DNA from: a bacterium
GTDB lineage: Bacteria; Deinococcota; Deinococci; Deinococcales; Deinococcaceae
Length of the DNA stretch: 64,000 nt
Reading direction: 5' to 3'
Assembly (NCBI GenBank): GCA_021810505.1
Contig: JAJZIR010000002.1
Span: forward strand, 62,001-126,000
Shown here: positions 33,294 through 36,819 of the stretch, one piece after another
Position numbering within the stretch: position 1 is the first letter of the stretch
Layout: every line of letters starts with the position of its first letter
The notes under the pieces: model-generated
Database searches by the model: none
What the model saw: only the letters and a program-made list of their open reading frames with translations
What the model was told of the DNA's origin: nothing
Made by a program: the position numbers and the translations under genes

Positions 33294-35624
33294 CTAGCTA
33301 GGCCGGTCTCGGATCTCCCAGCCGGCCCGGCGCACCGCGGCGATTGCTGCGGCGAAGGCGGCCTCGATCTCTTCCTCGCTGAGGGTCTTGGTTCCCCGGT
33401 AACGGAGCCGCACCGCGGTCGAGCGCATCCCGGCCGGAATGGCGCTACCCTCGTAGAGGTCAAAGGCTTCGGCCGATTCCAGCAGCTCGCTGCTGCTCGC
33501 CAGCAGGCTGCGCAGCTCCCAGAAGCTGACCGAACGCGGGGTCAGAACCGCTAGATCGCGCAGGGCTGCCGGATGGCGGCTGGGCTCTTGAAATGTGCGC
33601 TCCTTGCTGGCTAGCGGCCAGGCCAGCTCGGCGACGGCCAAAGGACCGCTGGCGCAGGCTTCCTGCACTGCTGGGTGCAGCAGACCCATCCAGCCGGCGA
33701 CCTGGCCGTTCCAACGCAGGCGGCCACAGACCCTGGGGTGCAGGTGGGCGGGCGGGTCCCCCTCGGGAGGCAACACCTCCAGGTCGGCCCCCCAGTTCCA
33801 GGCAACTTTTTCCAAGACCGCCTTGAAGGCCAGAGGACCCTCCCCGAAGCCGGGTTGCCAGCCGGCCGAGATGAGGGGCCCGCGCATGGCCACCCCCACC
33901 CGCTCGCACTCTCCTCCCTCCGGGAAGACGTGGCCGATCTCGAAGACCAAGCCGCCGGCCTGGTACTCCGGGCTGCGCAGCGTGCGGATCAGGCCGGGAT
34001 ACAGGGCGGTCCGCAGGGCGGTCCGCTCGCTGCTGAGGGGGTTTTCCAGCAGCAGCGCCGCCTGGGGTGATCTGGTCGCCGAGATTTCGGCGGCGTTGGT
34101 GAAGCTGTAGTGCACCAGCTCCTGGGCCCCGGCCCCGATCAGGGCCCGGCGCAAGCGCTGGCGCTGGCGGTCTTCCCCTCCGGTCTCCAGGTTGTCACCG
34201 GCCGGAGTGATGGTGGGCAGGCGGTAGGGGATCTTGTCGTAGCCGTCCAAGCGCGCGATCTCTTCGGTCAGGTCTTCGGGGAGCTGCAGGTCGCCCCGCC
34301 AGCTGGGGGGGGTTACTGCCAGGGCAGCGCCCTCCTGAGAGACCAAGCAGCCCAGGCTGGTCAGCAGGGCTTCCATGCGCGGCAGCGGCACCGCGTAGCC
34401 GAGCAGCCGCTCCACTTGCTCGCCGCTGAGCGTGACGGTGGGTTGAGGGTTCAGCCCAGCTCGGTAGGTGCTGGCCAGCAGCCTGCCGCCCGCCACCTGC
34501 CGGAGCAGCTCGGCGATCCGGCAGGTGGCTTCCTCGGGTAGCTGCGGATCGACGCCCCGCTCGAAGCGGTAGAGCGCCTCGGTGCGCAGGCCCAGCCGTT
34601 TACCGCTCCGGCGCAACCGGACGGGATCGAAGTGGGCCGCTTCGACCAGGATCTCGCTGCTGTCTGGCCGGATCTGTCCGCGCTCCCCGCCTAAGATACC
34701 TGCCAACCCGACCGTTAGATCGTCGCTGCGGATCACCAGGTCTTCCTCGCCGAGCTCGCAGCGCACCCCGCCTAACCCGAAGAAGACTTCTCCCGGGTAG
34801 GCCGGGCGGACCGCCAGGGAGGGGGAGGCCAGGTCCCGGCGATCGTAGAAGGCGGTCGGCTGGCCCAGTTCCAGCATCACGTAGTTGCTGACGTCCACCA
34901 GGCAACCCAAGCTGCGTATCCTGCTGCCGGCCAAGCGCCGCTGTAGCCAGGCTGGGCTCGGCCCCGGCCGCACCGTCAGCTGCAGGGCGGCGAAGGCGTC
35001 GCAGCCAGGGCCGAGCTCGGCGCGCAGGTTTCCTGGGCTAGGAGCTACCGTGGCCGGCTCGGGCCAAGCGAGAGAGACTCCCAGCGCGGCGGCCAGCTCG
35101 CGGGCCAGGCCGCGGACCGACAGCACGTCTCCGCGGTTGGGGGTGACCTCGATGTCTAGATGCTGGTCAGCCGGCCACAGCTCGGCCAGCGGCCGACCCG
35201 GCTCGGTTTCCCCCGGGAACACCAGCAAGCCGCTACCATCTTCGCCGATTCCCAGTTCCTTGGCCGAACAGGCCATACCGTAGGAGATCTCTCCCTGGAT
35301 GCGCCGCTCAGAGACGGGAGCGAGAATCCCTGTCAGGAAGCTGCCGGGCCGCGCTAGAGCCACGCAGTTGCCGGCAGCTGCGTTAGGGGCGCCGCTGAGC
35401 ACGCTGACGGTCCCCTGGCCGTCGTCGAGGGTCAGGCGGCGCAGCGCGCTGCCAGGGAGCAGTTCAGCCACAAGGACTTTCGCGCAGACGATGCCTGGAT
35501 CTAGGGCGGGGGTTGCTGACAACCCCTCGAGCGGAAAGCCCAGACTAGCCAGCAGGTTCTCCAGCTTCTCTGTAGCGGGGAGATCGGGGAGGACCTCCCG
35601 CAACCAGGCCAGCGACAGCTGCAT
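33294..35624 (-). CDS. pheT: Phenylalanine-tRNA ligase beta subunit
   Basis: A 776-residue subunit of the alpha2-beta2 synthetase charging tRNA-Phe. In order: the N-terminal tRNA-binding EMAP-like domain (VCAKVLVAELLPGSALRRLTLDDG), the B3/B4 editing domain, the B5 domain, the catalytic-like core and the C-terminal FDX-ACB anticodon-binding domain ending AVRRAGWEIRDRPS. The ATG at 35624 overlaps the pheS stop (TGATG). Upstream in-frame extension into pheS is not used. Confidence 0.96.
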   Translation of the reverse strand: MQLSLAWLREVLPDLPATEKLENLLASLGFPLEGLSATPALDPGIVCAKVLVAELLPGSALRRLTLDDGQGTVSVLSGAPNAAAGNCVALARPGSFLTGILAPVSERRIQGEISYGMACSAKELGIGEDGSGLLVFPGETEPGRPLAELWPADQHLDIEVTPNRGDVLSVRGLARELAAALGVSLAWPEPATVAPSPGNLRAELGPGCDAFAALQLTVRPGPSPAWLQRRLAGSRIRSLGCLVDVSNYVMLELGQPTAFYDRRDLASPSLAVRPAYPGEVFFGLGGVRCELGEEDLVIRSDDLTVGLAGILGGERGQIRPDSSEILVEAAHFDPVRLRRSGKRLGLRTEALYRFERGVDPQLPEEATCRIAELLRQVAGGRLLASTYRAGLNPQPTVTLSGEQVERLLGYAVPLPRMEALLTSLGCLVSQEGAALAVTPPSWRGDLQLPEDLTEEIARLDGYDKIPYRLPTITPAGDNLETGGEDRQRQRLRRALIGAGAQELVHYSFTNAAEISATRSPQAALLLENPLSSERTALRTALYPGLIRTLRSPEYQAGGLVFEIGHVFPEGGECERVGVAMRGPLISAGWQPGFGEGPLAFKAVLEKVAWNWGADLEVLPPEGDPPAHLHPRVCGRLRWNGQVAGWMGLLHPAVQEACASGPLAVAELAWPLASKERTFQEPSRHPAALRDLAVLTPRSVSFWELRSLLASSSELLESAEAFDLYEGSAIPAGMRSTAVRLRYRGTKTLSEEEIEAAFAAAIAAVRRAGWEIRDRPS

Positions 35625-36655
35625 CAGGAGCCCATCCCGCGGAACTGGGCCAGCACCCTGGGGTCGTTGGCGTAGAAGTGGCGGATGTCCGGGATAGCGT
35701 AGCGCAGCATGGCGATGCGGTTGGGGCCTAGGCCAAAGGCGAAGCCCATCTTGCCCTGATAGCAGGGGGCCTTGCCTTGGGCGACCCGCAGCTGGTCGAC
35801 TGCCGCGAAGACCTGGGGGTGTACCATCCCAGCGCCGCCTAACTCCAACCACTTCCCGGGACCTTTGGGATTTTCCCACCAGGCCGCGAAGTCAGCTCCC
35901 GGCTCGACGAAGGGGTAGTAGCTGGGCTGGAAGCGGACTTCGGCAGCCGGCCCGAACAGACCTCGGGCCAGCTCGCGCAGGGTACCCTTCAGGTCGGCCA
36001 TGCTGACCTGGTCGGCGACCAGCAGGCCCTCGAGCTGGTGGAACATCGCCTCGTGGGTCGCGTCGGTGGCCTCGTAGCGGTAGACCTTGCCCGGCACCAC
36101 GATCTTGAAGGGGGGTTCGTGGGCGACCATATAGCGCACCTGGACTGGACTGGTGTGGGTGCGCAGGACCCGGCCGTCCTTGAGCCAGAAGGTGTCCTGG
36201 AGGTCTCTGGCCGGGTGATGGGCTGGAATGTTCAGGGCGTCGAAGTTGTGGAGCTCGTCTTCTACCTCCGGACCTTCGGCGATCCGGTAGCCCATCGCCT
36301 GAAAGATGTCGCGCAGCTCATCTAAGACGCAGGAGATGGGATGGGGACCGCCTCTGGGCAGCGGGGGAGCCGGTAAAGTCAGGTCGAGGGCTTCCGCGCT
36401 CAAGCGCTGCTCCTGTTCGGCTACCTGCAGCTCGGCTTCCCGGGCATCTAAGGCCGCTTCGATCTGGCTGCGCAGGGCGTTGAGCCGTGCCCCCTGGCTG
36501 CGGCGCAGCTCGGTGGGCAGCGAGCCTAGGCTGCGCAGCTGGCTGGTCAGGGATCCGGAACGCCCCAGCAGCGCGCTGCGCAGCTCGGCTAGCGCCGCTC
36601 TGGACGCGCAGGCCTGCACGCGCTCTAAGGGATCGTCTTGCAGAAGATCATCCAT
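35624..36655 (-). CDS. pheS: Phenylalanine-tRNA ligase alpha subunit
   Basis: A 343-residue catalytic subunit. An N-terminal coiled coil (about 20-95) is followed by the class II core: motif 2-like DTFWLKDGRVLRTHTSPVQVR, GKVYRYEATDATHEAMFHQLEG, and motif 3 GFAFGLGPNRIAMLRYAIPDIR. AGGAG precedes the ATG. The gene lies just after an intrinsic terminator and a putative leader peptide with Phe codons, so expression is probably attenuated when charged tRNA-Phe is plentiful. Confidence 0.97.
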   Translation of the reverse strand: MDDLLQDDPLERVQACASRAALAELRSALLGRSGSLTSQLRSLGSLPTELRRSQGARLNALRSQIEAALDAREAELQVAEQEQRLSAEALDLTLPAPPLPRGGPHPISCVLDELRDIFQAMGYRIAEGPEVEDELHNFDALNIPAHHPARDLQDTFWLKDGRVLRTHTSPVQVRYMVAHEPPFKIVVPGKVYRYEATDATHEAMFHQLEGLLVADQVSMADLKGTLRELARGLFGPAAEVRFQPSYYPFVEPGADFAAWWENPKGPGKWLELGGAGMVHPQVFAAVDQLRVAQGKAPCYQGKMGFAFGLGPNRIAMLRYAIPDIRHFYANDPRVLAQFRGMGS

Positions 36656-36678
36656 GCCTCACTCCTGGTGGTGGGAAT

Positions 36679-36704
36679 AAAAAAGCGGACCGAACCGGTC
36701 CGCT
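36679..36704 (-). terminator. Intrinsic terminator/attenuator before pheS
   Basis: On the minus strand the stem AGCGGACC / GGTCCGCT (8 perfect pairs) is followed by a run of T. It lies between the leader peptide and pheS, about 24 bp before the pheS start. An upstream segment at 36729-36738 can pair with its 5' arm (7 consecutive bp), offering an antiterminator. Confidence 0.8.
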
Positions 36705-36722
36705 CCGCCGATCTCCAAGCGA

Positions 36723-36785
36723 TCAGGGGGAGCGGTCGTTCCCAAAAAACGGCGAACGCGCTGGCACCCCCGCAGGAGAGATCAC
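36723..36785 (-). CDS. Putative pheST leader peptide with tandem Phe codons
   Basis: A GTG 5 nt after the -10 box opens a 20-codon frame reading MISPAGVPARSPFFGNDRSP. Codons 13-14 are TTT TTT, and the stop precedes the terminator hairpin. Position, size and Phe pair match a ribosome-mediated attenuator peptide, like PheM of enterobacteria in principle but not in sequence. The start would be leaderless, as for many genes here. Confidence 0.55.
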   Translation of the reverse strand: MISPAGVPARSPFFGNDRSP

Positions 36786-36790
36786 AGCTC

Positions 36791-36819
36791 AGTGTACCCG
36801 GAGCCGGTACACGCTGCAA
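36791..36819 (-). promoter_or_regulatory. Promoter of the pheST operon
   Basis: On the minus strand TTGCAG (36819-36814), a 17-bp spacer and TACACT (36796-36791). Transcription would begin at or near the leader-peptide GTG at 36785. Confidence 0.7.

Follow-up and report, generated by a model that had tools for sequence, protein, structure and literature searches.

How the expression of pheST is controlled was the question raised by the region upstream of pheS in the window, the 64,000-nucleotide stretch of DNA that was analysed as a whole. The initial annotation had proposed an attenuator with a leader peptide translated from a leaderless transcript. Every part of this proposal, namely promoter, GTG start codon, 20-residue leader with adjacent Phe codons, pairing segment, terminator and pheS, was found on the minus strand between 36819 and 36655.

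Organization of the pheST leader region

The features of the locus, with the basis of each assignment, were as follows:

36814..36819, minus strand: -35 element TTGCAG (sequence)
36791..36796, minus strand: -10 element TACACT, 17 nt from the -35 element and 5 nt before the start codon (sequence)
36723..36785, minus strand: leader ORF of 20 codons, GTG at 36785, predicted to be leaderless, MISPAGVPARSPFFGNDRSP (sequence, and comparable short ORFs of relatives with SPF or FF(F))
36725-36723, minus strand: leader stop codon TGA (sequence)
36744..36749, minus strand: TTT TTT at codons 13-14, the two Phe control codons, part of the SPF motif (Phe in leaders of relatives; UUU preferred)
36737..36758, minus strand: hairpin CGUUC...GAACG, whose loop holds the Phe codons (minimum-energy fold)
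36700..36735, minus strand: putative antiterminator CCGCUCC-CUGAUC / GAUCGG-GGAGCGG (stalled-state fold; duplex compared with shuffles)
36679..36704, minus strand: intrinsic terminator AGCGGACCG-gtt-CGGTCCGCT with U-run (terminator scan; fold about -17 kcal/mol)
35624..36655, minus strand: pheS, phenylalanine--tRNA ligase alpha subunit (TIGR00468, 291 bits, cut-off 237, NCBIfam)
33294..35624, minus strand: pheT, phenylalanine--tRNA ligase beta subunit (TIGR00472, 505 bits, cut-off 403, NCBIfam)

The start of pheT overlaps the stop codon of pheS, and an AGGAG sequence lies between the terminator U-run and the pheS ATG (36655). The terminator was present as proposed, but its stem (36704-36684), originally given as 8 bp, is a 9-bp GC stem followed by TTTTTATT; the scanner paired 11 bp if G-U was allowed. 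Two terminator-like sites were found in the 800-bp region, compared with 0.2 expected from shuffles. A transcription start downstream of the terminator appears unlikely, as the U-run and the ATG are only about 23 nt apart and inspection of the sequence revealed no promoter-like site between them.

We read the locus, with a probability of roughly 0.85, as an attenuator of pheST transcription that acts through the ribosome, with a leader peptide that would be translated from a leaderless transcript. Alternatively, a T-box or other aptamer could control the terminator and the short ORF could be incidental, as T-box control is common in other phyla for aaRS operons that have a terminator in their leader. 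This is hardly credible here, where the element conserved across relatives is the ORF with its Phe codons and no covariance-model match was obtained at the locus, relaxed thresholds included. The only Rfam matches in the window were two tRNAs. None of the Rfam amino-acid leader families matched at the locus, and the matches that appeared at relaxed thresholds were all unrelated, no better than chance and on the opposite strand; a T-box or other known RNA family was rejected as a candidate for the leader on the lack of an Rfam covariance-model match.

Taken by itself, the predicted promoter of the window leader is weak: TTGCAG shares 4 of 6 bases with TTGACA, and the promoter fell below the scanner's 9-of-12 threshold. 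At the equivalent place most relatives of three groups carry TTGACA, TTGACG or TTGACC, so that support for the window promoter comes mainly from these stronger counterparts. A perfect 7-bp dyad, GTGTACC-N7-GGTACAC, spans the -10 element (36792-36812, minus strand); it was not noticed in the promoters of relatives and may be an operator or due to chance.

Leader peptides upstream of pheS in related genomes

The comparison set comprised 111 genomes of the phylum, with Deinococcus sensu stricto not identified among them; one scan of a collection of named genomes gave none either. The groups were f1 (the window's family), f2 (Trueperaceae), f3 (labelled Thermaceae), f4 (probably Thermaceae, Thermus- and Meiothermus-like) and f5 (Deinococcales MAGs). 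Leaders were called on promoter and spacing only, with the start codon 5-11 nt past the -10 box, and Phe was not required. Short ORFs directly after the promoter upstream of pheS included:

f1: MALERNSVSERSPFTGAGGSA, MCIDLELGVKSSPFTTRGRPRA, MRNRSFQHSPFFREGQARE
f5: MGTLSPFTS, MVNALSPFTRFA
f2: MQSYLASPFIH, MNVLRSPFTG, MRSLLASPFIT
f3: MRAYGFFFSY, MAAFFFP
f4: MAGGWFFS, MGGRWFFR

Conservation of the Phe codons in relatives was the point at which, as stated beforehand in the initial annotation, the proposal could fail. Phe was present in 59 of the 59 leaders called over the five family-level groups, window included; the leaders are kin by descent, and such counts overstate their independence. For one f1 leader (L004) the caller took a frame other than the SPF frame. 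Phe was also the commonest residue of the called pheS leaders (101 of 627, 16%). With the same caller, L, V and I together made up 37% of residues at ilvB, where F was 1.9%, while L reached 17% at leuS and W 19% at trpE, and thus the enrichment tracks gene function. From the sequences compared, the pheST-type leaderless leader appears to recur in most of the window's phylum, an unexpectedly wide distribution. No such leader was found upstream of pheS in 6 Thermus-like genomes. At one f2 locus (L081, genome G066) a TTGACA-TAGACT promoter is followed almost at once by a terminator and the leader ORF is absent, an apparent loss.

Codon usage in the leaders was also biased. Their Phe codons were UUU in 73 cases and UUC in 25 (74% UUU), compared with UUU shares of 15% in this genome and 26% in the pheS genes of relatives. 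In the 21 Ser-Pro-Phe motifs UUU was the sole Phe codon and UCG the sole Ser codon, but all four Pro codons occurred, so that Pro is retained as an amino acid. This last pattern, seen in three groups, together with the single Phe codon of many leaders, would also suit an arrest by the nascent peptide or at the Pro-Phe junction rather than for lack of charged tRNA-Phe, in which case the switch would read another signal, for instance EF-P status or some inhibitor. We consider such an arrest improbable: FFF or WFF is retained in f3 and f4 although SPF is absent there, the operon concerned is pheST, the UUU preference is what is expected of a slow control codon, and attenuator leaders with a single control codon have been reported, for example Streptomyces TrpL2 (PMC8079986). 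Stalling for want of charged tRNA-Phe is the reading retained below.

Predicted leaderless initiation

The window leader has its start codon 5 nt after the -10 element and no Shine-Dalgarno site. In this genome, the distance from TANNNT to a candidate start codon was 6 nt in 184 cases, 7 nt in 87 and 5 nt in 52, compared with about 24 at other distances. This peak at 6 nt, within a range of 5-7 nt, argues that leaderless initiation is normal here, as far as it can be read from sequence. It agrees with the spacing published for Deinococcus-Thermus, in which a -10 motif lies 6-7 bp before the start codon in about 30% of genes and -10-adjacent ORFs were found by reporters to be expressed leaderless (PMC12340547). 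TACACT, the commonest -10 motif adjoining ORFs in D. radiodurans according to the same study, is identical to that of the window and is likewise close before start codons; unlike the present analysis, that study says nothing of leader peptides, attenuation or pheS.

The spacing from the -10 element to the leader start is conserved among relatives, 6-8 nt dominating in f1, f2 and f5, and 7-11 nt in f3 and f4. The conservation in the first three groups and the genome-wide TANNNT peak together point to a leaderless transcript for the window leader. A leader with a 5' UTR of a few nucleotides, translated nearly leaderless and with the same attenuator logic, would fit the wider spacing of f3 and f4, the 5-nt distance of the window leader, which lies at the lower limit of the genomic peak, and the variation of start sites in general by 1-2 nt. 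It has a low probability, since the window has room for a UTR of no more than about 1-2 nt and the spacing in f1, f2 and f5 is mostly 6-8 nt.

Folding and geometry of the proposed switch

In the ribosome model used, 12 nt are covered from the A-site codon. With the ribosome at the first UUU, the arm 36735-36721 would be free; at the second UUU one base would be covered, and at UGA the arm would be covered wholly. In the stalled state CCGCUCC (36735-36729) and CUGAUC (36726-36721) are predicted to pair with GAUCGG (36713-36708) and GGAGCGG (36706-36700) at -18.5 kcal/mol. The antiterminator 3' arm shares 5 nt with the terminator 5' arm, and its pairing would take AGCGG out of the latter. Stalling at TTT TTT had been expected to favour the antiterminator; in the model, antiterminator and terminator do exclude each other and are suitably placed for stall versus stop. 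The window locus would thus combine the elements of a classical attenuator: a leader ORF with cognate codons, an intrinsic terminator, an exclusive antiterminator and a stall/stop geometry. The hairpin at 36737..36758 is possibly akin to the 1:2 structure of such attenuators and may play a similar role.

Equilibrium folding favoured the terminator in most states, so that the switch, if trp-like, would have to be kinetic with the antiterminator forming first. As a test of switching, equilibrium folding was dropped as uninformative, the terminator winning in nearly all states; the fold just before the terminator 3' arm is made and a duplex test against shuffles were used instead. Pairing of the segment exposed by stalling with the terminator 5' arm was stronger than in 96% of shuffles (p 0.037), a result of only modest significance given that this leader was one of 26 in the test. 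Three other f1 members gave p values of 0.21-0.68, and f2 and f5 were not significant as whole groups. Relatives thus keep the Phe codons, but the antiterminator pairing reached significance for the window leader and not for the other f1 members taken singly. Comparable antiterminators of different sequence were found by eye in two f1 leaders, GGGCCAG-CUCGAG/CUCGAG-CUGGCCC (L093) and AGGGGCC-CUCGAG/CUCGAG-GGCCCU (L004).

We propose that transcription would begin at or beside the GTG, and that a ribosome would load on the RNA at its 5' end, needing no Shine-Dalgarno site, and trail RNA polymerase. When Phe-tRNA is sufficient, the ribosome would reach UGA and cover the antiterminator 5' arm CCGCUCC...CUGAUC, the GC terminator would form and transcription would end before pheS. 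When Phe-tRNA is short, the ribosome would stall at UUU UUU and leave this arm free to pair with GAUCGG...GGAGCGG, which would remove the terminator 5' arm and allow pheST to be made.

Leaders in the genome and before other operons

About 2.3 Mb of the genome (the window and 20-kb tiles, with a few contig ends missing) was scanned for TANNNT with a weak -35 element, a start codon 5-8 nt on, an ORF of 7-40 codons and an intrinsic terminator with a gene after it. Of the six places that passed, only the pheST leader had a Phe-Phe codon pair. Another of the six is a plausible ilvB attenuator, a second leaderless candidate in this genome (L133, minus strand, -10 element at 1169; G000:C8, about 80,369). 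Its promoter and start read TTGACA-17-TAGTCT-7-ATG, and the ORF, MWWTVGLLGSLRGIRR with a stop codon, is followed by a possible antiterminator (CGGGGA..CGAAGG / CCUUC..UCCCCG) and the terminator AATCCCCGGCCTCAGCCGGGGATTTTT. Leaders were called at the corresponding place in 22 of 24 ilvB loci and are mostly rich in L, V and I.

At trpE (L275-L298), leaderless-type leaders with WW or WWW were observed in several groups, Thermus-like genomes included (MSPLPALWWPG), and the same caller found no trpE leader in the window's own genome. At leuS (L250-L272) there were short leaderless-type ORFs, in which one or two Leu are frequent (MIRSGL..., MTRTGLPPA, MYLRAQVSSVR); the genome of the window has one as well (L123, about 12152). 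Similar leaders thus seem to lie ahead of ilvB and trpE and, with weaker support, of leuS.

A constitutive partial terminator could also set the level of pheST, with the ORF being a decaying or unrelated small gene, and the lack of a clear antiterminator in most relatives outside f1 would be in keeping with this. It is nevertheless very improbable, as Phe occurs in every called leader with a UUU bias, promoter and spacing are conserved over five groups, and the leaders of ilvB, leuS and trpE carry their own cognate residues.

Relation to known attenuators

The E. coli pheST (pheM), pheA and trp attenuators combine cognate control codons in a leader peptide with mutually exclusive antiterminator and terminator structures, and pheM controls pheST, the same target operon as here. 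There the leader ORF is preceded by a 5' UTR that carries a Shine-Dalgarno site, whereas the start codon of the window leader lies at or beside the predicted 5' end. No sequence relation to the E. coli attenuators is indicated, because Rfam gave no match at the locus; by analogy, the proposed switch would work like the trp, phe and ilv attenuators. The initial annotation called it an unusual version of the classical mechanism, which is true when it is set beside the textbook examples but does not hold for bacteria with abundant leaderless mRNA, such as those in Corynebacterium and Streptomyces.

In Corynebacterium glutamicum, the ilvBNC leader starts one nucleotide from +1 and is practically leaderless, with three hairpins and overlapping terminator and antiterminator, and its codon replacements were tested (PMC11857589). 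The window locus resembles it in the predicted near-leaderless start, the three hairpins and the overlap. It differs in that C. glutamicum belongs to the Actinobacteria and its leader concerns branched-chain amino acids and has another sequence. In Streptomyces lividans, leaderless leader peptides were mapped by RNA-seq ahead of amino acid and aaRS genes, namely leuS, trpS, trpE, leuA, ilvB and thrS; some of them contain just one control codon, and some are accompanied by an intrinsic terminator (PMC8079986). This too is an actinobacterium, and the eight leaders listed for it include none for pheST. Mycobacteria have leaderless cysteine ORFs (PMC9031893, PMC4633059), and polycysteine ORFs (Canestrari et al. 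2020, doi 10.1111/mmi.14498) regulate downstream genes via their translation, as the description in PMC9031893 has it; no intrinsic terminator was found for them (PMC1262725). They share with the window a short leaderless ORF, clustered control codons and regulated downstream genes, but differ in using cysteine, in acting on translation of the downstream genes and in having no obvious intrinsic terminator.

Leaderless attenuator peptides are therefore documented in Actinobacteria and not new in kind. What looks new is the breadth of candidate leaders in the phylum, at pheST, ilvB, trpE and, more weakly, leuS. A literature search found no account of such attenuation for Deinococcota; the 2014 work on D. 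deserti leaderless mRNA was outside the search, and priority in the phylum is not claimed. The locus points to ribosome-mediated attenuation, on transcripts without a Shine-Dalgarno site, in a phylum with hardly any such description in the papers searched. A leaderless attenuator would save a step, that of recruiting the 30S subunit to a UTR, and would couple the first ribosome to RNA polymerase from base one. It would offer a natural system for studying the coupling of leaderless translation to transcription, and the phylum-wide leader set yields testable predictions.

Possible other versions of the switch in the phylum

A terminator between leader and pheS is also present in f1, f5 and most f2 relatives. 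The groups outside f1 do not clearly show the switch predicted for the window, because the antiterminator test was not significant for f2 and f5 as whole groups. Neither inspection by hand nor the duplex test gave an antiterminator in f2 or f5, and a hand-picked candidate for these groups, UAGCG:CGCUG, was rejected as unsupported. An alignment of 18 f2 leaders supports three hairpins. H1 lies within the ORF (GAAGC...GCUUC), H2 begins at the leader stop codon and H3 is the terminator. Both sides of H2 vary (G-C, A-U, G-U; U-A, C-G, U-G) with few broken pairs. This covarying hairpin was observed, for example, in the f2 leaders L022, L023, L027, L065 and L083. H2 does not overlap the terminator; in the model it would be free with the ribosome at Phe and covered with the ribosome at the stop codon, as fits an ON structure.

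Tentatively, leaderless attenuation could be the phylum's standard means of sensing charged tRNA, at pheST, ilvB, trpE and probably leuS in several family-level groups, with the lineages that have a single conserved SPF(UUU) motif switching via the conserved stop-codon hairpin and not via a trp-type antiterminator; we hold this broader view to be possible but doubtful. In the f3 and f4 loci (L008-L021, L094-L102), two GC-rich hairpins, GCGGGAAGC..GCTTCCCGC and GGGCGGC..GCCGCCC, come after the FFF or WFF leader and lack a clear U-run; these leaders possibly represent a translational version or one with U-poor termination.
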